From Liquorilactobacillus nagelii DSM 13675 (GTDB lineage: Bacteria > Bacillota > Bacilli > Lactobacillales > Lactobacillaceae): 64,000 nucleotides of DNA. This document shows, piece after piece, positions 3,552 to 55,473 of the stretch. The position numbers and the translations under genes are program-made. A model generated the notes under the pieces. That model was not told where the DNA came from. It saw only the letters and a list, made by a program, of their open reading frames with translations, and did not search any database. The DNA lies in contig NZ_CP049304.1 in NCBI RefSeq assembly GCF_019444005.1, positions 1,984,001-2,048,000 of the forward strand, read 5' to 3'. Every line of letters begins with the position of its first letter. Position 1 is the first letter of the stretch.

Positions 3552-4406
3552 TTGCTTCAAAAATTATTAATTATACAAGATTTTTCTTGTGCTGGACAAG
3601 TTTCATTAAGCAGTGCCTTACCTATATTAGGTGCCGCTGGTTTTCAGCCAGCTGTTTTACCAACCGCTCTGCTATCTACCCATACTGGAGGCTGGGGAAA
3701 GAACTCCTTTTATGATCTAAGTACTGAGTTAACTAAAATCATTACCCACTGGTCAACAATTCCTCTTAGTTTTTCTAATGTGTACCTAGGCTATTTAGGT
3801 GAGTCTGCTCTTTCTGTAATACTAGATCAACTTAATAAAGTTTTGAGTTCCAACCATCCTTTTATCTTGCTTGATCCTGTAATGGGTGATCACGGTAAAC
3901 TTTATTCGGGCTTTAGTAAAAAATATCCGCTAATGCTAAGTCACCTAGCAAAAAAAGCCTCCTTGCTTACTCCTAACCTAACTGAAGCTGAACTACTATT
4001 AAATCGTAAACTAAGTTCTGGTACTGTTGAAATTAATTATGCTCGACAACTAGTTGTTGAGCTTCAAAGAAAATTTCCTGATGCAGCAATTTTACTTACA
4101 GGTGTTAGTCTTGCCCAACAAAAAGTTGCCGTATTCGGTAGTGAAAATATTTCCCGGGAAATTTGGCAACTATCAACCCCCCGATTGCCTGGAAATTATT
4201 TTGGAACCGGAGATCTTTTTGCTAGTGCCTTAACAGCTGCTATTCTCAACAATATTCCCCTAAAAAGAGCTGCTGAAATTGCTATGGAATTTATTAATAT
4301 TAATTTAAAGCAGCGCTGCGCTGCTTCACAGCAAATTGATCTAAGAATTGGACTTGATTATTCTGCCGGTTTGCCATTATTATTAAAACAATTAAAAAAA
4401 ATTTAA
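3552..4406 (+). CDS. pdxK: Pyridoxal/pyridoxamine kinase
   Basis: Ribokinase-fold kinase that phosphorylates B6 vitamers in the pyridoxal-phosphate salvage pathway. The N-terminus (LLIIQDFSCAGQVSLSSALP) and the LSTHTGGWG segment are typical of PdxK/PdxY enzymes. LDPVMGD and the C-terminal GTGD (in GNYFGTGDLF) supply the anion hole and catalytic Asp. I place the start at TTG 3552 because AGGTGGGG at 3538-3545 sits 6 bp upstream and the protein then begins right at the conserved strand; a GTG at 3540 would overlap that ribosome binding site. It is 13 bp from a vitamin-type ECF S component and probably co-transcribed with it. A Noc-type palindrome lies inside the gene at 4148-4163. Confidence 0.88.
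   Translation: MLQKLLIIQDFSCAGQVSLSSALPILGAAGFQPAVLPTALLSTHTGGWGKNSFYDLSTELTKIITHWSTIPLSFSNVYLGYLGESALSVILDQLNKVLSSNHPFILLDPVMGDHGKLYSGFSKKYPLMLSHLAKKASLLTPNLTEAELLLNRKLSSGTVEINYARQLVVELQRKFPDAAILLTGVSLAQQKVAVFGSENISREIWQLSTPRLPGNYFGTGDLFASALTAAILNNIPLKRAAEIAMEFININLKQRCAASQQIDLRIGLDYSAGLPLLLKQLKKI
4148..4163. promoter_or_regulatory. Noc-binding-site-like palindrome (NBS 1)
   Basis: TATTTCCCGGGAAATT contains a perfect copy of the Bacillus Noc site ATTTCCCGGGAAAT (4149-4162). It lies inside the pdxK coding sequence. Three further copies occur in the window. Confidence 0.65.
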
Positions 4407-4419
4407 GGGAGGACTTTCA

Positions 4420-4974
4420 ATGCGAGAAAAACCTAACTCATTAAAAAGTATTATTTTTACTGGACTATTTGCAGCAATCATTTATCTTGGCATTTTCATT
4501 CTTAGAATTCCAATTCCTGCTATGGTTGGACGACCGTTTATCCACTTTGGAAATACCTTAGCTGCTTTGGCAGTTTTATTTCTTGGTTTTCGCAACGGAA
4601 CACTTGCGGGTATTATCGGTCTTGGAGGCTTTGATATTTTAAATGGATACGCCGCAACTTCTTGGTTAACAATGCTAGAAGTTATCATCGTTGCAAGCAT
4701 TATCGAATTGCTCTTTCGGTTCTTTAAATATCAAGACAAACAAAAACAAATTGCTATTATTGCACTTGCTGCTGGAATAACCAAAATTTTCACTTCTTAT
4801 TGCACTTCGATTATTGAGGCTTTAATGATTGGAACAAACTTCAAGACAGCAATTGTTGCTTCGTTTTTAAGCCTACCTGCAACTGTCATCAATTCTATTT
4901 CAACGGCTATTTGTGTTCCAATTCTCTACTTTTTAATAAAAAGGATCTTGCTTACTAGTCATTTTATTGATTAG
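4420..4974 (+). CDS. ECF transporter S component, probably for vitamin B6
   Basis: An integral membrane protein of 184 residues with about six hydrophobic helices (roughly 12-30, 43-60, 62-82, 84-102, 113-133 and 150-172). The compact size and the GRPFIHFGNTLAALAVLFLG segment, shared by small vitamin S components such as HmpT and predicted PdxU-type proteins, identify an energy-coupling-factor substrate subunit. It would work with the shared EcfA/EcfA'/EcfT module, which is not in this window. Substrate is inferred only from context: it follows a pyridoxal kinase by 13 bp with a strong AAGGGAGGA ribosome binding site. A thiamin-precursor S component is the main alternative. Confidence 0.7.
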   Translation: MREKPNSLKSIIFTGLFAAIIYLGIFILRIPIPAMVGRPFIHFGNTLAALAVLFLGFRNGTLAGIIGLGGFDILNGYAATSWLTMLEVIIVASIIELLFRFFKYQDKQKQIAIIALAAGITKIFTSYCTSIIEALMIGTNFKTAIVASFLSLPATVINSISTAICVPILYFLIKRILLTSHFID

Positions 4975-5019
4975 GCTGTTATCTTTTTTCAAAATTTTAC
5001 AATTTTTTTCGATTTGCTA

Positions 5020-5049
5020 TTGATAAACCCGATTCATTTATGATATTAT
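5020..5049 (+). promoter_or_regulatory. Promoter of tRNA-Lys
   Basis: TTGATA (5020-5025), an 18-base spacer and TATTAT (5044-5049) preceded by TG make an extended -10 sigma-A promoter 23 bp before the tRNA. Confidence 0.65.
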
Positions 5050-5071
5050 ACTTCTTGTTGATAAACGAATT

Positions 5072-5144
5072 GGGTGGCTAGCTCAGCTGGCAGAGCAACG
5101 GACTCTTAATCCGTGGGTCCAGGGTTCGATCCCCTGGCCACCCA
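5072..5144 (+). tRNA. tRNA-Lys (anticodon CTT)
   Basis: A 73-nt cloverleaf. The acceptor arm GGGTGGC pairs with GCCACCC, the anticodon stem ACGGA/TCCGT closes the loop CTCTTAA with anticodon CTT, and the T arm has GGTTCGATCC. The CCA end is not encoded. A promoter lies just before it and a terminator just after, so it is a single-gene transcript. Confidence 0.97.
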
Positions 5145-5157
5145 TCAGATAGTACGT

Positions 5158-5205
5158 AACCAGTAATCATTAGGTATCAAGAATACCGTGGTTGCTGGTT
5201 TTTTT
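5158..5205 (+). terminator. Terminator after tRNA-Lys
   Basis: The arms AACCAGTAATCAT and GTGGTTGCTGGTT form an imperfect hairpin followed by a T run (5201-5205). Confidence 0.6.
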
Positions 5206-5209
5206 GTAC

Positions 5210-5609
5210 TTTAAAATAGATTTATATTACATATAATATCATTAACATTCAAAAAAGTTAGTCAAAAAACAACTTGCGTGGGGCAGTGGCTGTTACGCAG
5301 TTTTTTAGTGCAAGTTCAACGATAGCAGCCTAAATCAGCCCTCTTTCGTCCCATTAAACCGGTGTAATTTTAACAATTATGTAAACTGATTATCGATGTC
5401 TGTATAGTTTATATGCTTCACAACCTATTTCCTCTCTCAAAATTCCACTTTCATCAGCTAAGGAAGAACTATACCTGCTATTTGTATCATATTTAGTTTG
5501 TTTAACATTAATTAAATTTGAATTTTCCACTGGTTCAAGTCACTTTATTTCACAAAAATTATTTTTAAGCATACTCTAAGATTACATTTAATATTTAGGA
5601 GGCATTTAC
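5210..5609. other. Gene-less stretch before aldo/keto reductase
   Basis: I see no convincing ORF here. The only structure is a weak terminator-like hairpin at 5275-5306 (TGCGT...ACGCA followed by six T) nested in an outer repeat AACTTGC...GCAAGTT. The remainder is AT-rich and probably holds the promoter of the next gene. Confidence 0.4.
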
Positions 5610-6449
5610 ATGAGTATACCAACTATTGAACTTAATGATGGACATTTGTTGCCTGCTATTGGTTTAGGAACTTACCAAATTCGTGGTGGAAAAGGAATTG
5701 ATCAAGTTCTTTCAGCTATTAACGACGGCTATCGCTTACTTGACACCTCAACAAACTATGATAGTGAAGGAATTGTCGGTGAAGCTATTCGTCGTTCTGG
5801 AATCCCGCGATCAAATTTTTTTGTTACTACTAAGCTTCCTGGAAAGTATCATCATTTTGATGATACTTTAATGAGTATTCAAGAATCTCTCTGTCGTATG
5901 GGCCTCAAGTATTTTGACCTTTATCTAATCCATTGGCCTCTGCCAAAACGTGGGCTTTATCTTGAAGCATGGAAAGCAATGATTATTGCACAAAAGATGG
6001 GATTAATTCGCTCAATTGGTGTCTCAAACTTTGAACCAGATCATTTGGATCATTTGATTAATGAAACAGGCGTTACACCAGCTGTTAATCAAATCGAAGT
6101 TCACCCTTATTGGGTACAAGAACGAATGCTGCAAGCAAACAAGGATCGTAAAATTATTACTGAAGCGTGGAGTCCTTTAGGTCGTGGCAGTCAGTCCATG
6201 AAAGAAAAGGTCATAACTGATTTAGCTGAAAAATATCAAAAATCGCCTGCGCAAATTATCCTTCGTTGGCATCAACTACGAGGAATCGTACCAATTCCTA
6301 AATCTAGTAGTTTAAATCATCAACGCCAAAACCTTGATATTTTCGATTTTCAGTTAACTAATAATGAGATCAAGGACATCAATAGTTTAAGCCAAGTTAA
6401 TGGACGAATCGACAATCAAGACCCCAATGAGTATGAGGAGTTTGAATAA
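5610..6449 (+). CDS. Aldo/keto reductase
   Basis: NAD(P)H-dependent reductase of aldehydes and ketones, TIM-barrel fold. The catalytic tetrad can be placed at D45, Y50, K75 and H108 (motifs LLDTSTNYDSEG, TTKLPG, LIHWPLP). The cofactor loop near the C-terminus reads VPIPKSSS. At 279 residues it has the normal size for the family of 2,5-diketo-gluconate/methylglyoxal-type reductases. The start ATG follows AGGAGG by 7 bp. It is flanked by tRNA genes and not in an evident operon. The substrate cannot be told from sequence. A second, only distantly similar family member lies at 29234-30088. Confidence 0.9.
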   Translation: MSIPTIELNDGHLLPAIGLGTYQIRGGKGIDQVLSAINDGYRLLDTSTNYDSEGIVGEAIRRSGIPRSNFFVTTKLPGKYHHFDDTLMSIQESLCRMGLKYFDLYLIHWPLPKRGLYLEAWKAMIIAQKMGLIRSIGVSNFEPDHLDHLINETGVTPAVNQIEVHPYWVQERMLQANKDRKIITEAWSPLGRGSQSMKEKVITDLAEKYQKSPAQIILRWHQLRGIVPIPKSSSLNHQRQNLDIFDFQLTNNEIKDINSLSQVNGRIDNQDPNEYEEFE

Positions 6450-6514
6450 CTCTAAATTTAGTTGCCCATTAAATATATCCTTACTACTGAACTTTTTTAT
6501 TAAATTTCAAGAAA

Positions 6515-6547
6515 AGTGTTTACAAAACACTAAGTATATGATTTAAT
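6515..6547 (+). promoter_or_regulatory. Promoter of tRNA-Asn with inverted repeat over the -35
   Basis: TTTACA (6519-6524), 17 bases and TTTAAT (6542-6547) form the promoter. The -35 lies in a perfect inverted repeat AGTGTTT-ACA-AAACACT (6515-6531), which may be fortuitous. Confidence 0.5.
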
Positions 6548-6568
6548 TATATACGTTGATAATTTAAT

Positions 6569-6640
6569 TGCTCAGTAGTTCAGTGGTAGAATAATTGACT
6601 GTTAATCAAGAGGTCGCAGGTTCGAACCCTGCCTGAGCAG
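6569..6640 (+). tRNA. tRNA-Asn (anticodon GTT)
   Basis: A 72-nt cloverleaf with acceptor TGCTCAG/CTGAGCA, anticodon stem TTGA/TCAA around the loop CTGTTAA (anticodon GTT) and T arm GGTTCGAACC. The discriminator base is G and CCA is not encoded. It has its own promoter and terminator. Confidence 0.96.
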
Positions 6641-6646
6641 CTAGCT

Positions 6647-6677
6647 AAAGCATGGTAAAAATTACCATGCTTTTTTT
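6647..6677 (+). terminator. Terminator after tRNA-Asn
   Basis: Perfect hairpin AAAGCATGGTAA / TTACCATGCTTT with a 3-nt loop and a T run. Confidence 0.85.
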
Positions 6678-6724
6678 AATATCTCAATTATTTCCACATT
6701 GTTTGTAATAATTTAAGCTTTAGA

Positions 6725-6740
6725 TGTTTCACATGAAACA
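6725..6740. promoter_or_regulatory. parS: parS-like site 1 (ParB/Spo0J binding)
   Basis: TGTTTCACATGAAACA matches the Firmicutes parS consensus TGTTTCACGTGAAACA at 15 of 16 positions; only the central G is A. It is intergenic, about 19 kb left of oriC. An identical copy is at 30864 and a 15/16-identical one at 8684. Confidence 0.8.
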
Positions 6741-6788
6741 CAAAGCAATACTACAAAGACTTTTAATAACAGCACAGCTTATTAGCAA

Positions 6789-6834
6789 AACAATGCAGAT
6801 CCGTTAAACTAAAACTTAACGGATCTGCATTGTT
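6789..6834 (-). terminator. Terminator of the nhaC-type gene
   Basis: A 19-bp perfect stem (AACAATGCAGATCCGTTAA and its complement) with an 8-nt loop. It lies about 60 bp past the stop codon of the minus-strand transporter gene. The T run on that strand is short (TTTT), so part of its strength would come from the stem. Confidence 0.65.
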
Positions 6835-6891
6835 CATTTATAAAATTTCTTTGGTTTTAAAGTGAAAAATTTAATATCATTCTAGCTACAA

Positions 6892-8298
6892 TTAAGCTTG
6901 TGTCTTAATTGCTTTTTCCAGATCTCGTTTTTTATCTACCGTTAATAGCCCCCAACCTGTGATTTCACTAATTATTGAAAACACTGGACATAATAAACTA
7001 AAGAAAACGAACGGTAAATAATTAATAGTTGTCACACCCAAAGTATTTGTCAGAAACACTCCTCCGACACCCCAAGGAACTAAGTAGTTAATAACAGTCC
7101 CCCCCTCTTCTAAAACTCGACCTAGAGCATCATTGGACAATCCTCCCTGATTATACGCAACTTTAAAAGCTCTTCCAGGTAAAATAATTGATAAAAACTG
7201 CTCACCAACAAAAATGTTTATTCCTAAACATGCTGCTAACCCAGCAACAATTAATTTAAGTTGATTATCTAAATGCTTGCTTAACGGATTCATTAAGGCA
7301 GTGATTAAACCGAATTTTACCAATAATCCTCCCAGTGAAAGAGTCAAGACAATTAATGCAACTGTCGGCATCATGCTAACAATCCCACCTCTTGATAATA
7401 AAAGATTGACTGATTTACTTGTCGTTTTGGCTACATATCCATCAGTAATGATGTTTGCCAATTTTGCTAGGCCAAGTTGCGGTTGTTGAACTAAAATTAT
7501 TACGCTGGTAACAAAAATATTCAACAGCATTGTTGGAATTGCAGGCATTTTAAATCCTGCACAAACAAAGACTAAGACAATTGGTAATAAAACCCAAATT
7601 GCCAAATCAAAATTAGTCTGCAAAATATGGACTGTTTGATTAATTTTAGTTAAGCTTGCCTGTGAATCATCATGTCCAATCAAAATAAACAATAGTAAAC
7701 TAATAAAGCCGGCCGGTCCCATTGTCCATAAAAGATCTTTAATATGCTGAAACAAATCAGTATCTACTACCGCTGCAGCCAAGTTATTTGTTTCTGATAG
7801 CGGTGAAAGTTTATCACCAAAAATTGCGCCCGCAATTATGGCACCGGCAACCATCGCAGGATTAAGATTCATCGTGATTCCCATGCCCATAAAAGCAATT
7901 CCTACTGTTGAAGCTACTGTAAAAGCACTTCCAACTGCACTTCCAACCAACGTACAAACAATAAAAACTGATGGTAAAAACCAGCGAACACTAATTAATT
8001 TAAAGCCGATAACCATCAATGTCGGAATCGTTCCTGCTGCGATCCAAGTACTAATCATTGCTCCAATCAAGATAAAAATAAAGATTGGAACAATTCCTTT
8101 TTCGATTCCATCTCTTATACCTTCATTGACATTTAACCAATCAAAGCCACGAATTCGTGACCATAAAATCACAAAGCTCATTGCTAACATTACTGGCACC
8201 TGTGGTGATAATCCGAAACCAATAACCCCTACTCCCATAATAACCAGCACAATTGCTAAAATTACAGCTGCTTCAAGTCCTTTAATTTTAATTTTCAT
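6892..8298 (-). CDS. NhaC-family Na+/H+ antiporter-type transporter, probable tyrosine transporter
   Basis: A 468-residue polytopic membrane protein with about 11-12 hydrophobic helices. It has the NhaC/ArcD-like segments GSAVGSAFTVASTVGIAFMG and GAIFGDKLSPLSETNN. The family contains Na+/H+ antiporters, but members controlled by tyrosine T-boxes (YheL type) have been proposed as tyrosine transporters. The gene is preceded by a T-box leader (8399-8630) whose specifier reads best as TAC (Tyr). Expression would then rise when tRNA-Tyr is uncharged, so I infer tyrosine uptake or exchange rather than pH homeostasis. It ends at a long hairpin at 6789-6834 and stands alone. Confidence 0.8.
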   Translation of the reverse strand: MKIKIKGLEAAVILAIVLVIMGVGVIGFGLSPQVPVMLAMSFVILWSRIRGFDWLNVNEGIRDGIEKGIVPIFIFILIGAMISTWIAAGTIPTLMVIGFKLISVRWFLPSVFIVCTLVGSAVGSAFTVASTVGIAFMGMGITMNLNPAMVAGAIIAGAIFGDKLSPLSETNNLAAAVVDTDLFQHIKDLLWTMGPAGFISLLLFILIGHDDSQASLTKINQTVHILQTNFDLAIWVLLPIVLVFVCAGFKMPAIPTMLLNIFVTSVIILVQQPQLGLAKLANIITDGYVAKTTSKSVNLLLSRGGIVSMMPTVALIVLTLSLGGLLVKFGLITALMNPLSKHLDNQLKLIVAGLAACLGINIFVGEQFLSIILPGRAFKVAYNQGGLSNDALGRVLEEGGTVINYLVPWGVGGVFLTNTLGVTTINYLPFVFFSLLCPVFSIISEITGWGLLTVDKKRDLEKAIKTQA

Positions 8299-8398
8299 TT
8301 TCTTCTTCCTCTCAATTAAAAATTTAATAGTCTAGCTAATCAATCATAAATATCGTGGAAGTCCGCCAACCTTTATCATAAAAAAACTCCTTTAGTAA

Positions 8399-8630
8399 CA
8401 AAAAAGTCCCGATTGCTTTAAAGCAATCGGGACGATTTTCCGTGGTACCACCCAAAATTAAAACTATTTATCAGTTTTCTCTCTTATGACAATTAACGAT
8501 GTCAACCGTTATTCAAACTCAACTGTGGTATTTCATCATTTTGCCCTGATTGGTTCGCAGCAACCACCAACTTTCTGACACCCAAACAAAACAACTACTA
8601 ATACAATTTTCAACGCTTAATTATTAAATT
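8399..8630 (-). promoter_or_regulatory. T-box riboswitch, probably tyrosine-specific, upstream of nhaC-type gene
   Basis: The minus strand carries the T-box core GGGTGGTACCACGG (around 8440-8455), followed by a strong terminator hairpin GTCCCGATTGCTTTAAAGC with its complement and T run (8401-8433). Upstream are the Stem I AGTA element and the TTGAG landmark after the specifier loop. The specifier-loop 3' side reads TGAAATACC; aligning GAA with known T-boxes gives TAC (Tyr), while a reading one base later gives ACC (Thr). Confidence 0.88.
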
Positions 8631-8636
8631 AACATT

Positions 8637-8665
8637 AGATTAGCATTTTATAATTAAACTGTCAA
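8637..8665 (-). promoter_or_regulatory. Promoter of the nhaC T-box transcript
   Basis: On the minus strand, TTGACA (8665-8660), 17 bases and TAATCT (8642-8637). It lies between the parS-like site and the T-box leader. Confidence 0.6.
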
Positions 8666-8683
8666 CTAATTATAATAAGCTGA

Positions 8684-8699
8684 GGTTTCACATGAAACA
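8684..8699. promoter_or_regulatory. parS: parS-like site 2 (ParB/Spo0J binding)
   Basis: GGTTTCACATGAAACA differs from the other two window copies only in the first base. It is about 17 kb left of oriC and just upstream of the nhaC promoter. Confidence 0.72.
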
Positions 8700-8782
8700 T
8701 TCTATCTTTTTTATTACTTGCACAACTACTCAAAAAGTATCAGAATGTAAGTAATTTATTATTTTAAAAGGAGTGTATTGTT

Positions 8783-9274
8783 CTGTCAGTCACAATAACA
8801 TGTCAAGATACTTTAGCAATTACCGAACATCGTATTATAAATAGTGATTTAAATGAACACGGCACCGTTTACGGTGGACGTTTATTAGAGTTACTCGATG
8901 GTACTTCCTCAATATCAGCTGCCCATTTTGCTCGCCATTTAACTGTTACAGCTGCTGTTGATCAATTCAATTTTATTGCTCCCCTAAAATTACATGACTC
9001 ATTCAAAATAATTTCTTATGTTAGTGGTGCAGGTAAGCGTTCAATTGAAGTTTTTGCAAAAATTATTGGAAGCCAAGATACTTTTGGTGAAAAATTTCTA
9101 TCGGCAACAGCTTTTCTAACTTTTGTTACTCCCAAATTAGTCACTCTTCCAACTCTTGTTTCAATCAATGAAGAAGAACAAGTAATTTGTAAAAATTATC
9201 AACAGCGTCATTCATTACGTCAACAACAGTTAGCAGCAAATAAAGAATTTTATTCTGTGATAAATTTAGATTAA
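8783..9274 (+). CDS. Acyl-CoA thioesterase (hotdog fold, YkhA type), apparent CTG start
   Basis: A 163-codon open frame encodes a YkhA/YciA-like thioesterase with ITEHRIINSDLNEHGTVYGGRLLELLDGT. The N-G-GG segment and the following Asp are the family's active-site region, and VDQFNFIAPLKLHD matches the second hotdog strand pair. The frame has no ATG, GTG or TTG near its 5' end and no internal Met to start from. The best start is CTG at 8783, 9 bp after the strong ribosome binding site AAAAGGAG (8766-8773); it gives the usual N-terminal length. ATT 8777 is too close to that site. A single-base sequencing error near the start is the alternative. Such enzymes hydrolyse acyl-CoAs in the cytoplasm. 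Confidence 0.8.
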   Translation: MSVTITCQDTLAITEHRIINSDLNEHGTVYGGRLLELLDGTSSISAAHFARHLTVTAAVDQFNFIAPLKLHDSFKIISYVSGAGKRSIEVFAKIIGSQDTFGEKFLSATAFLTFVTPKLVTLPTLVSINEEEQVICKNYQQRHSLRQQQLAANKEFYSVINLD

Positions 9275-9278
9275 TTTA

Positions 9279-9392
9279 TCAATTTTGCTTTTCAAGAAAT
9301 TTAATCAAAAAAGCGACGGCTTCTTCATATGAGCAAGATTTTTGTTTCATAACCAGCTCCACTGCTTGTTTAGTTGTTTTCGAAAAAGCCAT
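9279..9392 (-). CDS. Small 37-residue protein of unknown function
   Basis: The short frame begins with ATG at 9392, preceded by AAAGGAGAG with about 7-nt spacing, one of the better ribosome binding sites in the region. The peptide starts MAFSKTTKQAVELVMKQ and ends EEAVAFLIKFLEKQN. It is amphipathic and Lys/Glu-rich with one Cys, and should form two short helices with no membrane segment or signal peptide. It converges on the thioesterase gene with 4 bp between stop codons. I do not recognise a family. Confidence 0.5.
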   Translation of the reverse strand: MAFSKTTKQAVELVMKQKSCSYEEAVAFLIKFLEKQN

Positions 9393-9576
9393 AAAAATCT
9401 CTCCTTTAGTTTATCTGAGAATTAACTCACTCTAAATGTTATTTTATACCGTGCCCTTTAAAAAAACGAGCTTTATTTATTGCTAAATTATTTTAAAATC
9501 AATAAAAGGTTGCTAGTTGTGGCCATTTTAGCAATTAAAACTTTTTTATTACAATTTCATTTGGTGTTTAGCTCAA

Positions 9577-9619
9577 AAAATAGGAGTAAAAAGGATTATT
9601 TCCTTCTTACTCCTATTTC
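9577..9619 (-). terminator. Terminator of purA
   Basis: AAATAGGAGTAA and TTACTCCTATTT pair around an inner AAGGA/TCCTT, with T-rich flanks on both strands. It is just downstream of the purA stop. Confidence 0.8.
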
Positions 9620-9631
9620 TATGCCTTGCAG

Positions 9632-10924: not shown

Positions 10925-11049
10925 TTAGCTTCACCTCATTGTTTTTTTTAATACAAATTATTAATCAACCTCGATAATTGTAACAATGAAGCCCTATTAT
11001 TTCAAGTAAATTCCGAAGATTAATTCTTATATTTTAATGTCAAGCAAAA

Positions 11050-11090
11050 AATAGCGAACTATAGTTAGAATCTAACTATAATTCACTATT
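11050..11090 (-). terminator. Terminator of dnaB
   Basis: AATAG-C-GAACTATAGTTAGA pairs with TCTAACTATAATTC-A-CTATT immediately after the dnaB stop. The T run after the stem on the minus strand is good. Confidence 0.75.
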
Positions 11091-11095
11091 TCATC

Positions 11096-16454: not shown

Positions 16455-18950
16455 TTATTCTTCTGTTGTCGAAGCACTTTCATCAACTTCGTTTTCATCA
16501 TCAATTTCTTCTACAGCAACTTTAGCCATCGTTGCTACACTTGTTTCATCAGCAACTTTAATTAAGTGCACTCCTAAAGTTGCGCGTCCAGTTGTCGAGA
16601 CACTTTGAATGTTAAATCTGATCATAACGCCCTTGTCAGTAATTAACATAATATCTTCATCACCTTGAACTGTTGTTAAGCCAATTAATGGGCCATTTTT
16701 AGCTGTAACATTGGCTGTCTTGATACCTTTTCCCCCACGTCCTTTAATTGGATACTCTGCAGCTGAAGTCTGTTTACCATAACCTTTTTCGCTTACAATA
16801 AAGACTTTACTATCAGCACTCAGAATTGCTGCTCCAACAACATAATCATTCTCTCGCAGACGAATACCGCGAACCCCGCTAGCTGTCCTTCCCATTGGTC
16901 GAACATTTTCCTCAGAAAAGCTGACCGCATAGCCTTGGTGCGTTCCAATAATCAAATTACGCTGATCATTGGTAATTAAAACACTGATTAGCTCATCATC
17001 ATCTTTTAAAGTAATTGCCTTGAGACCATTCTTTCGGATATTGCTGAATTCATCAACAACTGTTCTTTTTACTGTTCCCTGTTTTGTCGTAAAAAACAAA
17101 TAGCTTTGATGTTGAGCATGACTTTGTTTTATTTCCCGGGAAACATTAATAATCGTCTGCACTTTTTCTTTGGCATCAATTCCTAATAGATTAATCACTG
17201 GAATTCCTTTAGCCATCCGACTATACTCGGGAATTTCATATCCTTTCATTCGATAAACCTTACCTAAATTCGTAAAGAATAACAATTCATCATGAGTGGA
17301 TGTGCTAATTAAATGCTCAATAAAATCATCGGCATGAACCCCCATGCCCTGAATTCCACGGCCGCCACGATGCTGTGTTTTAAACTCACTGGTTGCTAGT
17401 CGTTTAATATAGCCATTATGGGTTAACACTACCATCACATTTTCTTCTTCAATCAGGTCTTCATCTTCAATGCTGAGAACTTCCCCAACCATTAATTCTG
17501 TCCGCCGTTGATCCCCAAACTTCGATTGAATTTCAAGCAGCTCTTCATAAATAATTTGATCAATTCGCTCATTATGCGCTAGAATGTCTTGATAATCAGC
17601 AATAGCTTCCAATAATTTCTGATACTCATCCTCAATTTTTTCACGTTCAAGTCCAGTCAAACGAACCAAACGCATATCTAAAATTGCTTGTGCCTGTTTA
17701 TCCGATAATGCATAATTATCAATTAATTTATTTTTAGCAATCTCTCCACTTTGTGAATGGCGAATAATATTAATGATTTCATCAATATGATCTAATGCTA
17801 TCCGTAATCCTTCTAAAATATGAGCACGAGCCTGTGCTTTTTTTAAATCAAACTCAGTCCGCCGGCGAATAACTTCTTCTTGGTGTTTGAGATAATAAAC
17901 TAAAATTTGTTTTAAGGTCAGAATTCTTGGAGTACCATTAACAATTGCCAACATATTAAAATTGAACGTTGTTTGCATTAATGTTAATTTGTACAAATTG
18001 TTTAATACTACAGATGCACTCATATCTCGACGCACATCAATTGTAATCCGCATTCCTTCACGATCTGATTCATCATGGATATCAGTAATCCCGTCAATTT
18101 TCTTTTCACGGGCTAAATCAGCTATTCTTGTAATCAATTTTGCTTTATTTACCATGTAAGGAAGCTCGTTAACAATAATTTGTTCACGGCCATTCTTTTG
18201 AGTTTCAATTTCAACCTTCGCTCTCAAAATAACGGTACCCTTGCCAGTTTCATAAGCTTTTCTAATTCCTGATTTTCCCATAACAATTCCGCCTGTAGGA
18301 AAATCTGGTCCCTTAATTGCTTCCATCAAATCAGCAGTAGTTGCTTCTGGATTTTTCATTAAAATATGCAAGCCAGAAATAACCTCTGTTAAATTATGTG
18401 GTGGAATATTGGTCGTCATTCCAACAGCAATCCCAGTTGCCCCATTGACTAATAGATTTGGAAAACGAGCCGGTAACACAACAGGTTCTCTTTCCGAGCC
18501 ATCATAGTTAGGAATAAAATCAATTGTGTTTTTATTGATATCCCGCAACATTTCCATCGCAATTTTGCTCATTCGGGCTTCCGTATAACGCATTGCTGCA
18601 GCCCCATCTCCGTCAACTGAGCCAAAATTTCCGTGCCCATCAACTAACATATAGCGATAGCTGAAATCTTGTGCCATCCGAACCATCGATTCATAAATTG
18701 CAGAATCTCCATGAGGATGAAATTTCCCCATAACATCCCCCACAATTCTGGCAGACTTTTTATATGGCTTGTCAGGCGTAACACCTAATTCGTTCATTCC
18801 ATAAAGAATTCGACGATGAACGGGTTTTAACCCGTCTCTAACATCTGGCAATGCTCGTGCAACAATGACACTCATTGCATAATCCAAGAAAGATTTACGC
18901 ATAATTCCAGACAAATCTGCCTGTTTAATACGATCTGGTAAATCTACCAA
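16455..18950 (-). CDS. gyrA: DNA gyrase subunit A
   Basis: Catalytic subunit of gyrase, 831 residues. The winged-helix/tower region holds the active-site Tyr in [11 protein letters not shown]. The quinolone-resistance region reads [17 protein letters not shown], with the susceptible-type Ser and Glu. The C-terminal beta-pinwheel has the GyrA box-type repeat GRGGKGIK. The C-terminus ends in an acidic tail ([18 protein letters not shown]) as in other lactobacilli. The start is TTG at 18950, preceded by GGGAGG at 8-nt spacing. It follows gyrB by 56 bp. One Noc-type site lies inside the gene (17130) and another in the gyrB-gyrA gap. Confidence 0.98.
17130..17145. promoter_or_regulatory. Noc-binding-site-like palindrome (NBS 2)
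   Basis: TATTTCCCGGGAAACA matches the 14-bp Noc core at 13 positions. It lies inside gyrA. Confidence 0.55.
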
Positions 18951-23904: not shown

Positions 23905-25260
23905 TCATTTTTTCAAATCGGCTTTTAAATCTGCCACCGCTCTTTGTAATTCAGTATCTGCTGGCAGGGAATCTGAAATTTTTTCATGAGCATGAATAAC
24001 GGTCGTATGATCTTTCCCACCAAATTCTTGTCCAATTTTAGGCAAAGAAGCATCTGTTAGTTCCCGAGCTAAATACATCGCAATTTGTCGTGGAATAACT
24101 ATATTTTTAACACGCTTTTTTCCTTTTAAATCACTTAAAGAAATATGAAAATATTTAGCAACTCGATCTTGAATTACTGAAATAGAGATTTCATTTGACT
24201 TGCCATTTAGTTTCAAGTTTTTCAAGGCATCGGCGGCCAAACTAGTTGTAATTGGCAAATGTGTCAATGATGCATAGGCTTGAACTCGGACTAGAGCGCC
24301 TTCTAATTCACGAATATTGGAATCAATTTGTCCGGCAATATAGCTTAATGTGTCATCAGGAATCGCTAGTTGGTCTGCATCAGCTTTATTTCTCAAAATT
24401 GCAATTCGAGTTTCTAAATCAGGTGGTGTAATATCAACTGATAGTCCCCATTTAAACCGTGAAACTAGCCTTTTTTGCAGTTTAGGGATTTCATTTGGCA
24501 GTCGATCAGACGAGAGGACAATTTGTTTTTTGTCATCATAAAGTGCGTTAAACGTATGAAAGAACTCTTCTTGGGTGCCTTCTTTGTCTGCAAAAAATTG
24601 AATATCATCAACTAGCAATAGATCAACACTGCGATACTCTTGTCGAAATTCCTCTTGTCGTTTTGTTTGGATTGAGTTGATGAAATCGTTGGCAAAAGCC
24701 TCACTTGTGACATATTTAACCTTGGCTTGCGGATTATTGGCTAACATTTGATGACCGATTGCATGCATTAGATGCGTTTTTCCCAATCCAACTCCTCCAA
24801 AGAAGAACAATGGATTGTAAAGTGCACCAGGTTCTTCGGCTACGACTAACGCAGCGGCATGTGCCATTTGGTTTCCTTTCCCGATAACAAAAGTTTCAAA
24901 TGTATACTTATCATTTAATTTTGTTTCCCGCATAAAAGTCGGCTTTGCCTGTTCTTGTCGGTAAGCTGTTTCCTTGCGGTTGATAGGTTTGTTATTTTGG
25001 AGTGGGTTTGGTTCAGTTGGCAACTTTACTATAACCTTTATTTCTTGTTTAATACTGGATTTTATCATTGTTATTACTTGTGCGCTTAAATTCGCTGTCC
25101 AGTAATCTTTATGTAAAGCAGTTGGTACCTCAATCACGAGGGTGTTTTTTTCAAAGGCAATTGGTTTTGCGGCCTTTAACCACGTATTAAAACTAATTGA
25201 TGATAATTTTAATTTAAATTCATCGCAAATATACTGCCATAATGTTTCTAGGTCAGGCAC
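23905..25260 (-). CDS. dnaA: Chromosomal replication initiator DnaA
   Basis: A 451-residue initiator. Domain I is about 1-80 ([14 protein letters not shown]...TWLKAAKPI); a short variable domain II follows. The AAA+ domain III is about 115-335 with Walker A (GGVGLGKTH) and Walker B (LLLVDDIQF). Domain IV has the DNA-binding signature [16 protein letters not shown]. The start codon is GTG at 25260, preceded by AAAGGGGGG. The gene is flanked on both sides by DnaA boxes and is probably autoregulated by them. Confidence 0.98.
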
Positions 25261-30863: not shown

Positions 30864-30879
30864 TGTTTCACATGAAACA
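30864..30879. promoter_or_regulatory. parS: parS-like site 3 (ParB/Spo0J binding)
   Basis: TGTTTCACATGAAACA, identical to the site at 6725, lies just after the ohrR-like stop and about 5 kb right of oriC. A partial half-site (GATGTGAAAC) follows at 30885. Confidence 0.8.
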
Positions 30880-47259: not shown

Positions 47260-47264
47260 GCTGA

Positions 47265-47624: not shown

Positions 47625-47681
47625 GTGAATCAGCTCCTTGGGTTAAATTACTTATCATTAATTTTACTCTTAAAAAATAAT

Positions 47682-47720: not shown

Positions 47721-47753
47721 ATTATAAGCATACCCCTTAGGAGTATGCTGAAA

Positions 47754-47945
47754 CTATTTTGTGAAATCAACATCTTTAGTTTCGATGATTGTTAGTAAAG
47801 CAATGAAGCAGGCAATAGCCATGGTTCCTAGATAGAGTCCAACTGACTTAATTCCCCAATTATCGGCTAACCAAGTTGCGATTGTCGGTGCAACTTTAGC
47901 GATGAAGTATTTTGCTCCAGCAGCAGCAATTCCTTCGACCATTTT
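47754..47945 (-). pseudogene. C-terminal remnant of an MFS (metabolite:H+ symporter type) transporter
   Basis: About 60 residues remain: KVAPTIATWLADNWGIKSVGLYLG, then a hydrophobic helix and the end ETKDVDFTK. In full-length MHS/ProP-like transporters this is the last helix pair and C-terminus. The ATG offered at 47960 sits in unrelated sequence and no upstream part of the transporter is seen in any frame. The gene has lost most of its length. A hairpin typical of gene ends still follows it. Confidence 0.7.
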
Positions 47946-47960
47946 CAGTATATGGCACAA

Positions 47961-48306
47961 TATTTCCGGTTCAGTTTTATCTTCGTATTGGCGAAATAAA
48001 ACTGAGTTGGCAGTTCCAAGTCAAGTTAAAGTTTCCCAATCAGCAGCAAGTTCAGATAACTAACTTCTGATTAAATAGAAAAAATTAAAAAGTTTCCATG
48101 AATTTTCAGTTAACAATTAGTGTGATTGAAAATTTGTGAAAACTTTTTTATTTGAAGATAATATTTTACAATGTTAACATTTTATATGTTGTTTGTGGAA
48201 AATGTATTCTAAGGGGTTAATTAGATTGGAACCTGTGTCCATTATTAAGAATAAGTAACTAAAGAGATTTTAATTTTAAACAAAAGAGGAGATTACTACT
48301 TAAACT
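47961..48306. other. Gene-less stretch before the amino-acid permease
   Basis: Contains a long imperfect hairpin followed by a T run (48086-48149, arms AAAAAGTTTCCATGAATTTTC and its near complement). It could be a terminator or a leader attenuator for the permease. No ORF is supportable. Confidence 0.4.
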
Positions 48307-49950: not shown

Positions 49951-49965
49951 TTATTGGCAGTCTAA

Positions 49966-50003
49966 ATAGTAGTCCCTAGTTGAACACGACTGGGGACTAC
50001 TAT
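49966..50003. terminator. Hairpin between permease and hrtA
   Basis: AATAGTAGTCCC-TAGT pairs with ACTG-GGGACTACTATT. It lacks a long T run but lies between convergent genes, overlapping the end of hrtA. Confidence 0.55.
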
Positions 50004-50695
50004 TAGTGATTGATAACTGTCGGTAATAGTTGACCATCTTTAATTTCGTTGATTTGATCAGCAAATCTTTTTAGCCGCAAGTCATGAGTAACAATGATCA
50101 CGGCTTTTTGTTCAGTATGAGCTAAATCAGCAAATAATTGTCCGACTTGTTCAACTCGCTGACTATCAAGAGCAGCTGTCGGCTCATCAGCCAAAATAAT
50201 TGGTGGATTGGGGTAAAGCGCACGTGCAATTGCTACACGTTGATTTTGCCCACCTGAGAGTTCGGCTGGATATTTATCGATTAATTCAGCAATTCCTAGT
50301 TCATCCAATAAGCTAGCTAATTCAGTTGGGGAAAGATTATTAGTAGGTTTGATTCGGTCAACTAAAGCGAATTGATCGCTAACTTTGAGGTAAGGTAGGA
50401 GATTGTATGCTTGTAAGACAAAGCCAATTTGATTTAAGCGCAATGAATCACGCTGTTTAGCAGATAATTCTGTTAATACTTGTCCAGCCAACTTGACTTG
50501 TCCGCTGGAAGGTGACTGCAGGCCACCGGCGATTGTTAAAAAGGTGCTTTTCCCAGATCCAGATGGACCTAGGATCAAATTTAACTGACCTGCCGCTGCT
50601 GCAAAATTTAGATCATGCAAGACATGAACTTTACTTAGACCATTACCAAAACTTTTATTAATTTGCTGCATTTCAAGCAATTTTTTTGTAGTCAT
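50003..50695 (-). CDS. hrtA: ABC transporter ATP-binding protein, HrtA-like haem exporter ATPase
   Basis: A 230-residue MacB-type ATPase with Walker A (GPSGSGKST), Q-loop, signature LSGGQNQR and Walker B (IILADEPTAALDS). It is 3 bp downstream of an FtsX-type permease. The hrt assignment comes from the operon: a TetR regulator, permease and ATPase in the order hrtR-hrtB-hrtA known from Lactococcus, with matching operators. It would power export of toxic haem from the membrane. Confidence 0.85.
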   Translation of the reverse strand: MTTKKLLEMQQINKSFGNGLSKVHVLHDLNFAAAAGQLNLILGPSGSGKSTFLTIAGGLQSPSSGQVKLAGQVLTELSAKQRDSLRLNQIGFVLQAYNLLPYLKVSDQFALVDRIKPTNNLSPTELASLLDELGIAELIDKYPAELSGGQNQRVAIARALYPNPPIILADEPTAALDSQRVEQVGQLFADLAHTEQKAVIIVTHDLRLKRFADQINEIKDGQLLPTVINH

Positions 50696-50698
50696 TAC

Positions 50699-51760
50699 TT
50701 AACCTCCAATTGCAGAAACTGGATCAATTTTAGCAATTGTCCAAACTGGTATCAATGCCCCCACTAAAGCTGTGACAATCAGACCACCAGCAATACTAGT
50801 TAACAGCGGCAGGTTAAAAGTCATAGGAGTTCCAGCGGGAATAGCAACTGCCGTAACTCCAGTTAATCCCGCTGCAATGATTATTCCGATTAAGACTAAT
50901 AAGAGTGCTTGAGTAAGCGTCGCTCGAATTAAGAATCGGGCTGGGATACCTTGGGCTCGCAAAACGGCATAGTTTTGAATTTTTTGAATTGTCAAAATAT
51001 ATAAGAAAACAGCAATTACAATTAAAGAAATTATCATCAGAAAAGCGATCATAAAGGTAAAAGTTATATTTTGAGCGGAGTAGCCAGGCAATTTGTTAAT
51101 GAATTTTTGAATACTATATGTTTTTAAACCGTTTGAATGAGATTGGTAATTAGCTTGCTGAGAAACGACAGCACTGGCCTTGAATGATTTGTTCAGATTT
51201 TTGAGTTGTTGCCAGGCTGCTAATTGCCCATAAATGACTGGAGCGACACTTAACTTGGCATTCTCAGTAAAACCAACGATTTGATAGTCAGTTTTGTTAG
51301 AGTTTAATTTTAAATGATCACCTAATTTATAGCCGGCAGTTTTAAATGCTTGATCGACAACTAATTGTTGCGAGTTCTTTACCCAATGTCCGCTGGTTAA
51401 TTTAACTTGTTTAGCAATAAATTGATTCGATTCTAACCCAATGAATTGAGCAGATTCTTTGGCTAAGCCGCTTTTTTTGGCAACTACTGGAGCTTGACCG
51501 ATATAGGCCTCTTTTTTAGTTAGATGGAGTTGTTGGCTGTTTTTTTTAGTAATTAATGATTGAGTTAAGTTAATATTGGCATTATTATTCAGAACTATTT
51601 GTTTAACATTCCATGACTTAATAGCAGCTGTGTTCTGTTGTGCCAGACCTTGAGCTAAGCCAGTTAAAACGAAGACTAGATAACTAATTAGCATAATCAT
51701 TCCGATAATTAAGCTATAGCGTAATTTTTCATACTTAATTTCTTTCAATGATAAAAACAT
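50699..51760 (-). CDS. hrtB: ABC transporter permease, HrtB-like haem exporter
   Basis: A 353-residue MacB/FtsX-type permease: TM1 at about 15-35, an extracytoplasmic domain of about 190 residues, then three helices at about 232-258, 280-305 and 322-345. The N-terminus MFLSLKEIKYEKLRYSLIIG is very like lactococcal HrtB. It lies between tetR/hrtR and hrtA in a compact operon. In the family it takes haem from the membrane and extrudes it. Confidence 0.85.
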   Translation of the reverse strand: MFLSLKEIKYEKLRYSLIIGMIMLISYLVFVLTGLAQGLAQQNTAAIKSWNVKQIVLNNNANINLTQSLITKKNSQQLHLTKKEAYIGQAPVVAKKSGLAKESAQFIGLESNQFIAKQVKLTSGHWVKNSQQLVVDQAFKTAGYKLGDHLKLNSNKTDYQIVGFTENAKLSVAPVIYGQLAAWQQLKNLNKSFKASAVVSQQANYQSHSNGLKTYSIQKFINKLPGYSAQNITFTFMIAFLMIISLIVIAVFLYILTIQKIQNYAVLRAQGIPARFLIRATLTQALLLVLIGIIIAAGLTGVTAVAIPAGTPMTFNLPLLTSIAGGLIVTALVGALIPVWTIAKIDPVSAIGG

Positions 51761-51784
51761 TTAATCAACTCTTTTCTAAACCAG

Positions 51785-52309
51785 CTAATCCTGATCGACT
51801 AATGAGGTTAAAGCGATTGCCAAACGATCTAAAAAAGTTTGGCGTTTAGCAGGCTGAAGTAAAATATCACGAATGGTTGCGTGAGACAAAGTCATAGCTG
51901 ACCAATGGCGGGCATCTAGAGTTAAAGCTGGTGCTGGTTTAGCTTGGGGCAAAATGACTTCGTTATATAGGATGTGTAACTTGATTAAGTTGTAATAACG
52001 GCTATTAACGATTTTTCCGGTAAAATCACTGGCAGTTTGCAGATAAATTTCCGGTTGATAATTGCTGGTTAAACTGGCGGTGGGCAGTGGTTGATGAATA
52101 GCTGTCATTGCTTGATGATACAAGTATTGATAAGCATCGGGTAAGTCTTTAAAGTAGGTGTAAAAGGAACCACGGGAGATATCAGCACTTTTAACGATTC
52201 GGGCAACCTGTGCTTGATTAAGTGGGTAACTCGAAAATTCTTTTAATAGGGCCGAGTTGATTCGCTGCAATTTAGTATCAGTTACCTTAGATAGATTCGC
52301 GAGCACCAT
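51785..52309 (-). CDS. hrtR: TetR-family regulator, HrtR-like haem sensor
   Basis: A 174-residue TetR protein. The HTH is at about 12-58 (QAQVARIVKSADISRGSFYTYFKDL). The C-terminal ligand domain contains several His residues (for example LIKLHILYNE and DARHWSAMTLSHATI); HrtR of Lactococcus senses haem through two His. It is the first gene of its operon, with AAAGGAGG before the ATG. Two near-identical TTGACAC-N-GTGTCAA palindromes overlap and follow its own promoter, so haem-relieved autorepression is likely. Confidence 0.83.
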   Translation of the reverse strand: MVLANLSKVTDTKLQRINSALLKEFSSYPLNQAQVARIVKSADISRGSFYTYFKDLPDAYQYLYHQAMTAIHQPLPTASLTSNYQPEIYLQTASDFTGKIVNSRYYNLIKLHILYNEVILPQAKPAPALTLDARHWSAMTLSHATIRDILLQPAKRQTFLDRLAIALTSLVDQD

Positions 52310-52327
52310 TAATAAATTCCTCCTTTA

Positions 52328-52380
52328 TTGACACCGTGTCAATTTTTATTTAGTCTAGCATTTCATTGACACTGTGTCAA
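52328..52380 (-). promoter_or_regulatory. hrtRBA promoter with two HrtR-type operators
   Basis: TTGACACCGTGTCAA (52328-52342) and TTGACACTGTGTCAA (52366-52380) are perfect 7-bp palindromes around one base, 38 bp apart centre to centre. They share TGACAC-N-GTGTCA with the lactococcal HrtR site as I recall it. The upstream operator contains the -35 TTGACA, followed after 17 bases by TAGACT (52357-52352). The second operator is just downstream of the -10. Confidence 0.85.
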
Positions 52381-52441
52381 CGAATGATGTTTAGTTAATC
52401 CAAAAGAAAAAGCATTGGTTTAATAATTATAACTAACTAGT

Positions 52442-52480
52442 GAAGAAGGTCAGCTAATAAAAAATTAGCTGACCTTCTTT
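52442..52480 (-). terminator. Terminator of the aldehyde dehydrogenase gene
   Basis: GAAGAAGGTCAGCTAAT and its near-perfect complement pair around a 5-nt loop, about 70 bp after the stop. Confidence 0.7.
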
Positions 52481-52547
52481 GAGGATTAAAATATTTAAAT
52501 TTTATGTTCTGTCGTGTTTACAAAAAACAAAGTAATTATAAAATCAT

Positions 52548-53914
52548 TTAACCAAGAATAGTTTTAATATTAGCAAATTCTCGTATACCGAGATCGCTAA
52601 GTTCCCGGCCGTAGCCAGAATGTTTTACACCACCGAAAGGCAATTCAGGAATTGAAGATAGTGGTTGATTAATAGCTACTTGACCAGTTTCAATTTTTGC
52701 TGCTAAAGCTCGAGCAGCTGGTAAATTTTCAGAATAAATAGCTCCACCTAGACCGTAATTTGAGTGGTTAGCAATTCTCAAAATGTCAGCTTCATCAGTA
52801 ACGCGATAAAGCTGGGCAACTGGTCCAAATAGTTCTTGGTCGTACATCGGATTATCAAATTTCATTCCACTAATAATTAAGGGATTGAAAAAAGCTCCCG
52901 GACCACTGACAGGTGTTGGATCCCCCATAAAACTTTTGCACCACCAGCTAATACATCCTTAACTTGTTGCTGTAAAGTTTTTTGAGCTGATTTTGAGGAT
53001 AGTGGAGCCAGCGTTGTATTTTCATCCAAGGGATTTCCAGGTTGGTATTTGGCAAACTCTTGTTTAAGTTCTGCTAAAAAATCATCATAAATTCCAGATT
53101 GGACTAAGTAGCGTTTGGCAGCAGTACAAACTTGTCCTGAATTATTTAATCTACCTTTTGCAGCACCGACAACCGCTTTATTTAAGTCAGCATCATCTAA
53201 AATAACACAAACATCTGTTCCACCAAGTTCCATAGTTGATTTTTTAATGTTTTTACCAGCGGCAGCTGCAATTTTGGCGCCAGCTTTTTCTGATCCGGTC
53301 AAGGCAACCCCTTGCACACGAGCATCACTAATCATAGTAGTAACTTGATCATAAGAAGCAAAAAGATTTTTAAAAGCACCTGTTGGAATTTCAGCTGTTT
53401 GACAAGCTTCTTCAAAGGCGTGAGCACACTCGGGAACGATGCTAGCATGTTTTAAAATTACGGGGTTACCCAAAATAAAGTTAGGCGCAAAAACCCGCAT
53501 TACTTGGGTATAGGGAAAATTCCAAGGTTCGACGGCGACAATCGCACCAATTGAACTGAATTCTAGATGTGCCGGTTGTTTTGCACTTGCGGAGTAATCT
53601 TGATTAGCTAAAGCCGCCGCTCCATGATCAACATAGTATTGAGCAAAAGCCGCTGTTTTTTTAACTTCTGCTTGGGCGTCATTAATTAATTTTCCCATAT
53701 TTGTAGTAATGAAGCGTGCATAATAATCACAATTTTTTGTGAACTCTGCAGCCAAAGCAGCAAGTTGTTTAGCTCGTTGTTCAAAAGACTGTTTTTTGGC
53801 ATTTTGATAAAAATTTTCAGCAGCTGTTAAAGCTTCTTCAACTTCAGTATCGGTACTTGGAGCAAATTCTTTAATTAATTTTCCGTTATAAGGGTTAACT
53901 GCGCGATAAGCCAT
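52548..53914 (-). pseudogene. Frameshifted NAD(P)-dependent aldehyde dehydrogenase (succinate-semialdehyde type)
   Basis: Two overlapping frames together make one dehydrogenase of about 455 residues. The first (53914 to about 52930) has the Rossmann part, the catalytic Glu in MELGGTDVCVIL and the nucleophile in NSGQVCTAAKR. The second (to 52548) supplies FNPLIISGMKFDNPMYDQELFGP, LGGAIYSENL and ELPFGGVKHSGYGREL. The break is at a run of five G near 52925; one more G would join the frames as KVLWGDPTPVSG. It may be a real mutation, a slippery tract or a sequencing error. Intact, it would oxidise succinate semialdehyde or similar. Confidence 0.85.
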
Positions 53915-54243
53915 AAAATCTCCTCCTGTGGTTTTTCACCTAGAAAGTCTGCTGTTTTACTATCCTAAAGATACAATTTTATTATAAGAAGTTATAAGTG
54001 GAAAAGGAACTAATATGTTTCTAGGTTAATTCAGCCCTAAAACCAAAGCTGAATAAGATTGTAAATCAAGTAGAGCTGGCAGTTGGATCCGATGATAGAT
54101 ATTAAGCAGCGTTTTAAAGAAAAGTTGTAATAATTTCAGGTAGTTCAGCATAAGCTAGCGTAAAATGAAAATTTTTGATATCAAGTAATTATTACTGGTT
54201 CAAGTGTTCTTAGTATCTACTTTGGGGGATGGTAACTTGATAA
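53915..54243. other. Gene-less stretch between aldehyde dehydrogenase and XRE genes
   Basis: No ORF. An inverted repeat ATTCAGC...GCTGAAT (about 54024-54048) is the only structure I see. Confidence 0.35.
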
Positions 54244-54831
54244 TTAGTGCAGATACTTATAGAGAAACATGAAAGGTATCGCTACGATCACTGTGATCAC
54301 CAAGATAATCACTCCAATACCAATGGCAAGCCCCCATTGGTGTAATTGATCACGCACCCAATTACGATGTCTTCTAATTTTCTCAATGTCTTTGTTATCC
54401 TCATAGGCAATGATTTCCTTGTAGGTGCGGACGTCTACCTTGTGTTTGAGATATTCTAAATGAATTGCTGGAATAAATCCAAGAACAAAAGGAGTTATAA
54501 CCATAATGTAGAACCAAGGACTAGGCAACCATAGTGATGGTCCAATAGTAACTATTCCAATTATCCAACATGCAATCATCAGTTTAGCATCTCGATTGGA
54601 TTCTTTTGTGAAGACTTTCTTTTTCATATTTGGTACATCTCCTTTGACTAATTGGTCTAAGGAGGTATCGAATAGCACACTCAGCAAAAGAAGATTCTCG
54701 ATATCTGGGTAGTGTCGATCATTTTCCCAGTTAGAAACTGTCTGACGAGAAACATATAATTTATTAGCCAGCTGGTCTTGGGGCATGTTCAGACGCTCTC
54801 GTTGCTTTTGAATTTGTTTGCCAATTTTCAT
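54244..54831 (-). CDS. XRE-family regulator with membrane anchor
   Basis: A 195-residue protein. The N-terminal Cro/CI HTH covers about 1-60 (IGKQIQKQRERLNMPQDQLANKLYVSRQTVSNWENDRHYP in pieces). Then come a linker, a hydrophobic pair at about 83-120 and a final helix at about 168-192. The design, HTH plus C-terminal TM helices, is that of small membrane-tethered regulators in lactobacilli whose role is mostly unknown. It has an AAGGAGGT ribosome binding site. Confidence 0.82.
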   Translation of the reverse strand: MKIGKQIQKQRERLNMPQDQLANKLYVSRQTVSNWENDRHYPDIENLLLLSVLFDTSLDQLVKGDVPNMKKKVFTKESNRDAKLMIACWIIGIVTIGPSLWLPSPWFYIMVITPFVLGFIPAIHLEYLKHKVDVRTYKEIIAYEDNKDIEKIRRHRNWVRDQLHQWGLAIGIGVIILVITVIVAIPFMFLYKYLH

Positions 54832-55473
54832 TTTTTACCTCCTTCTCAATAGTCACAGGAACATTGAGATTTCTCTATCAAACAGTTTTGTCGGTGGCGC
54901 TAAAACCTTTTTACCTTTCTTTTAGGAGTGAGTTTGCAGCAGTTGTTGCAGGTTTGGTGATTTCACATAGTATTGGTGTTCGAAGACCTGACTAATCACG
55001 ATTTGATAATGTATGTAAAGTTCCTGTGATTTAGTCTTGCGCTTCCGATTTAGCAAGTAAGAAGATGCAAATCTCTATCAACTAGTGGAACTGTATCATC
55101 GCTACGATAGTTTGTAAAGCTGACTGGTGTGGAAAAGTAACCATGAACTGTGATTGAAGCACGAAAAAGATAGCAGCTTATTAAGAGGACTGTTTGTTTA
55201 AGCTAGGCCAATTTTGGGACAACTTGTTACTGTAACATTTTTGATATTAAGCAATATCAGTAGTTTAATTGTTTAGCAAATTTATTTCCCAGGAAATAAG
55301 GGCTTTTAAGTGATAGAAAATAAAGATTACTGATAGTTCATATCATTGCTGTCTCTTTAAGGGGGTTTTCGTTTTTAAATTAATACAACGATTGATTTTT
55401 TTGACAATAAGTTCATCTGAGTGTACTTTTTAACCAGTGAGTTTAGAATAAGAGGAAAGTGAGGTGTTATAAA
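54832..55473. other. Gene-less stretch containing a Noc-type site
   Basis: No supportable ORF. A short frame around 54930-54990 reads like a protein tail (VAGLVISHSIGVRRPD) but nothing extends it. The Noc-like palindrome at 55283-55298 is the one clear element. Confidence 0.4.
55283..55298. promoter_or_regulatory. Noc-binding-site-like palindrome (NBS 4)
   Basis: TATTTCCCAGGAAATA, identical over all 16 bases to NBS 3 at 18991. Intergenic, about 30 kb right of oriC. Confidence 0.6.

Follow-up and report, generated by a model that had tools for sequence, protein, structure and literature searches.

Known Noc systems and the present locus

A relative of the Noc protein keeps cell division off the DNA in other bacteria. 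The Noc experiments considered here come from B. subtilis and S. aureus, in which the reported Noc-binding sites (NBS), about 70 and 41, extend over much of the chromosome: in B. subtilis they are described around most of it (PMC4331003), and in S. aureus all but one of the 41 loci are reported to lie less than 700 kb from the origin (PMC5540599). Work on B. subtilis and G. thermoleovorans describes Noc as loading at its sites, closing into a CTP clamp, spreading, contacting the membrane and blocking division (PMC4331003, PMC8429893). NBS specificity has been assigned to residues Q173, K179, K184 and R201 and parS specificity to R173 and G201, and two positions of the half-site have been named as separating NBS from parS (PMC7383237). 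Noc and its sites are a known kind of system; among the literature matches listed, titles and the openings of abstracts mention neither Noc sites in lactobacilli nor an origin-bound layout across the Lactobacillaceae or an imprint of single sites on host sequences.

The window discussed here is the whole 64-kb stretch of DNA that was analysed (G000:C1:1984001-2048000); the genome comprises 2,563,276 bases on two contigs, with a chromosome of 2.49 Mb. The RecF protein encoded in the window shares 84% identity with its counterpart in L. ghanensis, 72% with that of L. sicerae and 66-68% with those of the next nine loci (eight from named Liquorilactobacillus and one from Lactobacillus sp. UCMA15818), and we take the organism to be a Liquorilactobacillus near L. 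ghanensis. As origin reference we used dnaA (G000:C1:2007917-2009239), at which the GC skew switches sign. The features needed below are as follows.

3540..4406, plus strand: pdxK-type pyridoxal/pyridoxamine kinase gene (homologue alignment; NCBIfam PRK07105 at 227.2 bits, slightly below the cut-off of 231)
4148..4163, unstranded: candidate NBS 1, TATTTCCCGGGAAATT, within pdxK, 20 kb from dnaA
6725..6740, plus strand: parS-type TGTTTCACATGAAACA, pattern scan
8684..8699, plus strand: parS-type GGTTTCACATGAAACA, pattern scan
16455..18950, minus strand: gyrA
17130..17145, unstranded: candidate NBS 2, TATTTCCCGGGAAACA, within gyrA, where the minus strand codes VSREI, 7 kb from dnaA
18991..19006, unstranded: candidate NBS 3, TATTTCCCAGGAAATA, between gyrB and gyrA, immediately after the stop codon of gyrB, 6 kb from dnaA
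19007..20959, minus strand: gyrB
23917..25239, minus strand: dnaA, profile match
30864..30879, plus strand: parS-type TGTTTCACATGAAACA, pattern scan
55283..55298, unstranded: candidate NBS 4, TATTTCCCAGGAAATA, intergenic between ORFs 54244-54831 and 55459-55818, 31 kb from dnaA on the other arm

With the B. subtilis system this one shares the palindrome core, a QKKR-type Noc, a noc gene beside soj-parB, an F/W-rich N-terminal start and a terminus half without near-consensus sites, but it has seven such sites, six of them within 178 kb of dnaA, where B. subtilis has about 70, a comparison between different counting methods. It shares its core consensus and origin bias with S. aureus, from which it differs in a tighter cluster and in having a ParA gene (soj), which S. 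aureus is reported to lack (PMC5540599). The ParB-parS centromere is similar in its few origin-proximal sites, its paralogous protein and its zone of the chromosome; it differs in two specificity bases and four specificity residues, and the sites described here follow noc rather than parB.

Candidate sites in the window and the genome

A sequence-only reading of the window had proposed that it holds four palindromes like the Noc site of Bacillus, two of them inside pdxK and gyrA and one in the gap between gyrB and gyrA. All four 16-mers are where that reading put them, and their placement agrees with the gene coordinates (3540-4406 and 16455-18950). They fit the palindrome ATTTCCCGGGAAAT, A and C standing in for the G and A of parS, apart from the 17130 site, which is off in one outer base; the G and A that define parS at the two discriminating positions are not the pair found in the window palindromes. 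The earlier statement that they depart from parS at the positions that separate Noc from ParB specificity is correct as to A for G and C for A, with a qualification for the 17130 site, one side of which carries the parS-type outer base.

The number of sites is far above chance, as had been claimed for four in 64 kb. Under an order-1 Markov model built on the window, 0.0011 16-mers at one mismatch to TATTTCCCGGGAAATA are expected in it, against the four observed, and in the whole genome we found 7, 0 and 14 matches at exactly one, two and three mismatches, against expectations for 2.563 Mb of 0.045, 1.05 and 15.0. A looser scan, with two mismatches over ATTTCCCNGGAAAT, gave a weaker signal, namely nine matches where 3.18 are expected, a number reached by 2 of 100 shuffles. 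The signal sits in the clean class of seven near-consensus sites (C1 positions 1339268, 1830937, 1972630, 1988148, 2001130, 2002991 and 2039283, the last four being those of the window), and these are not chance. The three-mismatch matches equal the chance number; 13 of the 14 are on the chromosome, and since six of those 13 lie less than 200 kb from dnaA (p = 0.011), a few weak sites may be among them.

Two side observations concern the parS-type sequences. The four strongest parS sites of the genome (6725, 8684 and 30864 in the window, and C1:1944542) are asymmetric, centred on CACATG rather than CACGTG, and all four have the same strand orientation. Outside the window, the site at C1:1888825, TGTTTCCCGTGAAACA, is a hybrid: one of its inner bases is of the NBS type and the other of the parS type.

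Noc and ParB of the genome

The sequence-only reading depended on a Noc/ParB paralogue being present, and the genome does encode Noc, a paralogue of its ParB. A genome-wide profile search returned two ParB_N proteins at E <= 0.001, encoded in the gene order rsmG-noc-soj-parB, in which soj was assigned by its position and a ParA-type match below the cut-off of that profile. Noc scores 320.9 bits with NCBIfam nucleoid_noc (TIGR04285), over the cut-off of 315, while its paralogue ParB scores 241.4. The Noc residues Q151, K157, K162 and R179 correspond to Q173, K179, K184 and R201 in the numbering of Caulobacter ParB, and the ParB of this genome has R, Y, G and G at the four aligned positions. All 20 Noc proteins that we read, our own and 19 from the other 82 noc-positive genomes of the survey below, have QKKR. 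The nearest PDB sequences are likewise divided, with our Noc closest to the Noc structures 7nfu, 7ng0 and 7ol9 and our ParB to Spo0J (6sdk). Our Noc starts with MAFSFWKNK, and similar F/W-rich starts, judged by eye only, are found in other Noc sequences. In Lacticaseibacillus pantheris (L048; G182:C29), the Noc match comes in two overlapping pieces, through gene decay or a sequencing error.

Distribution of sites and noc across the Lactobacillaceae

In a survey of 151 Lactobacillaceae genomes we recorded, for each, the number of TATTTCCNNGGAAATA matches with at most one mismatch and the presence of noc, a genome being called noc-positive when its best TIGR04285 E-value was below 1e-80. The 83 noc-positive genomes have a median of 6 sites, with at least three in 73 of them, compared with a median of 0 in the 68 noc-negative genomes, of which one has at least three; the reversed pattern, used as a control, shows no difference (0.64 and 0.63 matches per genome). 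P-values pooled over genomes ignore relatedness; on genus means, with 21 noc-positive against 21 noc-negative (40 genera in all), p = 3.3e-7. Two mixed genera behave in the same way: in g21 the noc-negative members have 1 and 2 sites and the noc-positive ones 3, 4 and 5, and in g33 the numbers are 0, 0 and 1 against 10 and 10. A ParB-type match is present in 67 of the 68 noc-negative genomes, and the sites follow noc, not parB.

Counted against this association are 10 of the 83 noc-positive genomes, which have two sites or fewer, and 8 of the 68 noc-negative genomes, which have two to four. G031 (g31) has a clear Noc and zero sites by the pattern, and its Noc may read a changed site. Two ParB-like matches occur in six noc-negative genomes (G019, G040, G056, G087, G114 and G138), and in G040 a full-length match at 1.3e-78 may represent a divergent Noc. 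The strict pattern skips degenerate sites, and its counts are not comparable with the ChIP counts of other species: the highest count it yields among 299 genomes from the class is 28 sites, far under the roughly 70 found by ChAP-chip in B. subtilis. We dropped the like-for-like claim that the family has fewer sites than Bacillus, given that the strict pattern undercounts relative to ChAP-chip.

Position relative to the origin and terminus

Taking the direction towards gyrA as positive, the seven near-consensus sites of our genome lie 669, 178, 36, 20, 7, 6 and -31 kb from dnaA. The terminus half has none, six of the seven lie no farther than 178 kb from dnaA and the remaining one is at 669 kb, in agreement with the depletion near the terminus that a Noc assignment had been said to call for. 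The comparison with Bacillus has to be corrected as to the layout of the sites, which here is an origin-proximal cluster mixed with parS.

The same crowding appears in a sample of 13 nearly complete genomes of one to four contigs, our own included, in which one contig per genome was used and the length of G009 is rounded. The median distance of their 80 NBS from dnaA is 6.8% of the arm; 51 of the sites are within 10%, 63 within 20% and 73 within 50%, and the last 20% of the arm has 1. Matches on other contigs, one on G000:C2 and one on G071:C4, are not part of this set. Our seven NBS and four parS were found with a slightly different pattern from those of the other genomes; with our genome excluded, the remaining 73 NBS give 46, 57 and 67 within the same limits and 1 in the last 20%. 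The 51 parS sites of the sample are also origin-proximal (41 within 10%, 49 within 20%, all 51 within 50% and 0 in the last 20%). Some of the distant NBS are expected to be background, given a rate of about 0.6 matches per genome for the reversed pattern. As a control we used G347, a member of the class outside the order, which has dnaA at the start of its 3.40-Mb first contig and 15 sites; the 10 of these that were listed lie at 3 to 79% of the arm, four of them within 20%, so that the method is able to return a spread pattern, as far as a single control goes.

Conservation of single sites

In our genome and in all 11 genus loci compared (L014-L024, with L. mali twice), the site in the gyrB-gyrA gap lies no more than 4 bases from the gyrB stop, although in L016 it has three mismatches; the remainder of the gap varies between species. 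In Ligilactobacillus it lies within 14 bases of the gyrB stop in 5 of 12 loci and is absent from the other 7, with noc present in all twelve genomes, which indicates that single sites turn over where noc is kept. The noc search took in 46 of the 80 RecF loci, and nine gaps longer than 220 bases were read in part, where weak sites could be missed.

In pdxK, NBS 1 is coded by an ISREI loop of the product. The site occupies the same place in the coding sequence in our genome and in five of five other genus genomes searched (G030, G066, G096, G122 and G146), the loci having been found via the pattern itself in whole-genome searches that gave only six to seven matches each; four other PdxK proteins of the genus are 48-53% identical to ours. 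Among the best 120 of 6014 PdxK homologues, the pentapeptide at this place is ISREI in 6, ISQEI in 6 and FSREI in 5, and the carriers include the nine named Liquorilactobacillus; in the other named genera shown among these 120, the loop is shorter or unrelated. Judged from these alignments, the pdxK site is present as an IS(R/Q)EI insert in the protein. We rejected an argument from rare codons at this site (TCC makes up 5.4% of the 931 Ser codons of 36 window genes), as the pattern that finds the loci itself contains TCC.

The gyrA site is younger. L014 and L015 have VSREI there, encoded by identical codons, L022 has a two-mismatch version, and the site was not seen in the remaining genus loci. 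The retention of the sites in pdxK and in the gyrB-gyrA gap suggests selection on single NBS.

Outside the genus, a sequence of the form (T/C/G)ATTGCCC(G/A)GGAAATA occurs at the 3′ end of recF in eight Lacticaseibacillus loci (near 11041-11047 in L044, L048, L049, L057, L067, L078 and L080, and near 8563 in L069). Eight Leuconostoc loci have parS at 11073-11079, nearly the same place.

Interpretation and alternatives

Considering that the sites exceed chance, that the genome has a noc gene with NBS-reading residues, that sites and noc are distributed together and that two sites are conserved, the palindromes are very probably binding sites of the bacterium's own Noc, which supports the interpretation of the sequence-only reading. 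Against this we count that strong sites are few and mostly at the origin; protection of the bulk of the nucleoid is not evident.

By analogy with Noc of B. subtilis and G. thermoleovorans, each NBS would be a loading place for Noc dimers, which would then form clamps with bound CTP and spread, and the N-terminal amphipathic helix, here putatively the start MAFSFWKNK, would be exposed and tether the DNA to the membrane, with the division ring kept from assembling over the Noc-bound DNA. Given the crowding of sites at the origin, protection would fall on the origin domain, in overlap with the zone of parS and ParB, and the block on division would lift when the sister origins part, not near the end of replication. 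We tentatively propose, with slightly more doubt than confidence, that Noc of the Lactobacillaceae is an origin-domain system, in which a handful of NBS interleaved with parS would form a second, membrane-tethering, centromere-like zone, single sites would be kept strongly enough to add a peptide to PdxK and to occupy the tips of terminator hairpins, and whole lineages would drop noc and the sites together. With near-consensus sites bound to the origin, and with noc and sites jointly absent from many genera, the Lactobacillaceae offer natural experiments on the number of sites needed for nucleoid occlusion and on the question of division or replication as the target of Noc.

The main alternative, unlikely in our estimate but live, is that the sites are Noc sites that serve at the origin chiefly to hold back the initiation of replication, as in S. 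aureus, division control being secondary. S. aureus Noc is reported to restrain initiation and to have minor peaks beside dnaA (PMC5540599); two of the window sites are only 6 and 7 kb away from dnaA, and 6 of the 13 genomes (G000, G008, G027, G037, G071 and G106) have one or more sites no farther than 10 kb from it. However, the interval from dnaA to ORF 25975 in the window has no match at two mismatches or fewer, and the control of initiation in S. aureus is described as not arising from site binding alone, since B. subtilis Noc, which binds nearly the same sites, is no substitute there (PMC5540599).

That the palindromes are Noc sites, whichever of these jobs is the main one, is a much better account than that they are variant parS read by ParB (Spo0J), which is highly improbable. 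They do share the origin region with parS and are intermingled with it, and the 17130 site and C1:1888825 have parS-type bases in one half, but the genome has separate parS sites, and we reject this reading on the discriminating bases, A and C, and on the co-distribution with noc, given that noc-negative genomes, nearly all with a ParB-type match, are mostly without NBS.

Least probable of all is an accidental likeness to NBS of RNA hairpins, terminators or sites of an unrelated regulator, which has in its favour the NBS-bearing hairpins downstream of yidC in four relatives and is rejected, as regards terminators and RNA hairpins at the four window sites, by folds not clearly better than shuffles (z +0.20 to -1.27, with NBS 4 at -0.22) and by a terminator search that gave no terminator-like match at NBS 4, while two of the four are in coding sequence and site counts follow noc.

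The hairpin description is true of the yidC element that holds an NBS in the four relatives. In our genome, the hairpin downstream of yidC is weaker (z -1.90) and without an NBS. In the four relatives (L016:4738, L017:4733, L018:4824 and L019:4661), the hairpin is strong (z -6.8 to -10.7) and has an NBS at its tip, the stems differing by species and the palindrome being kept.
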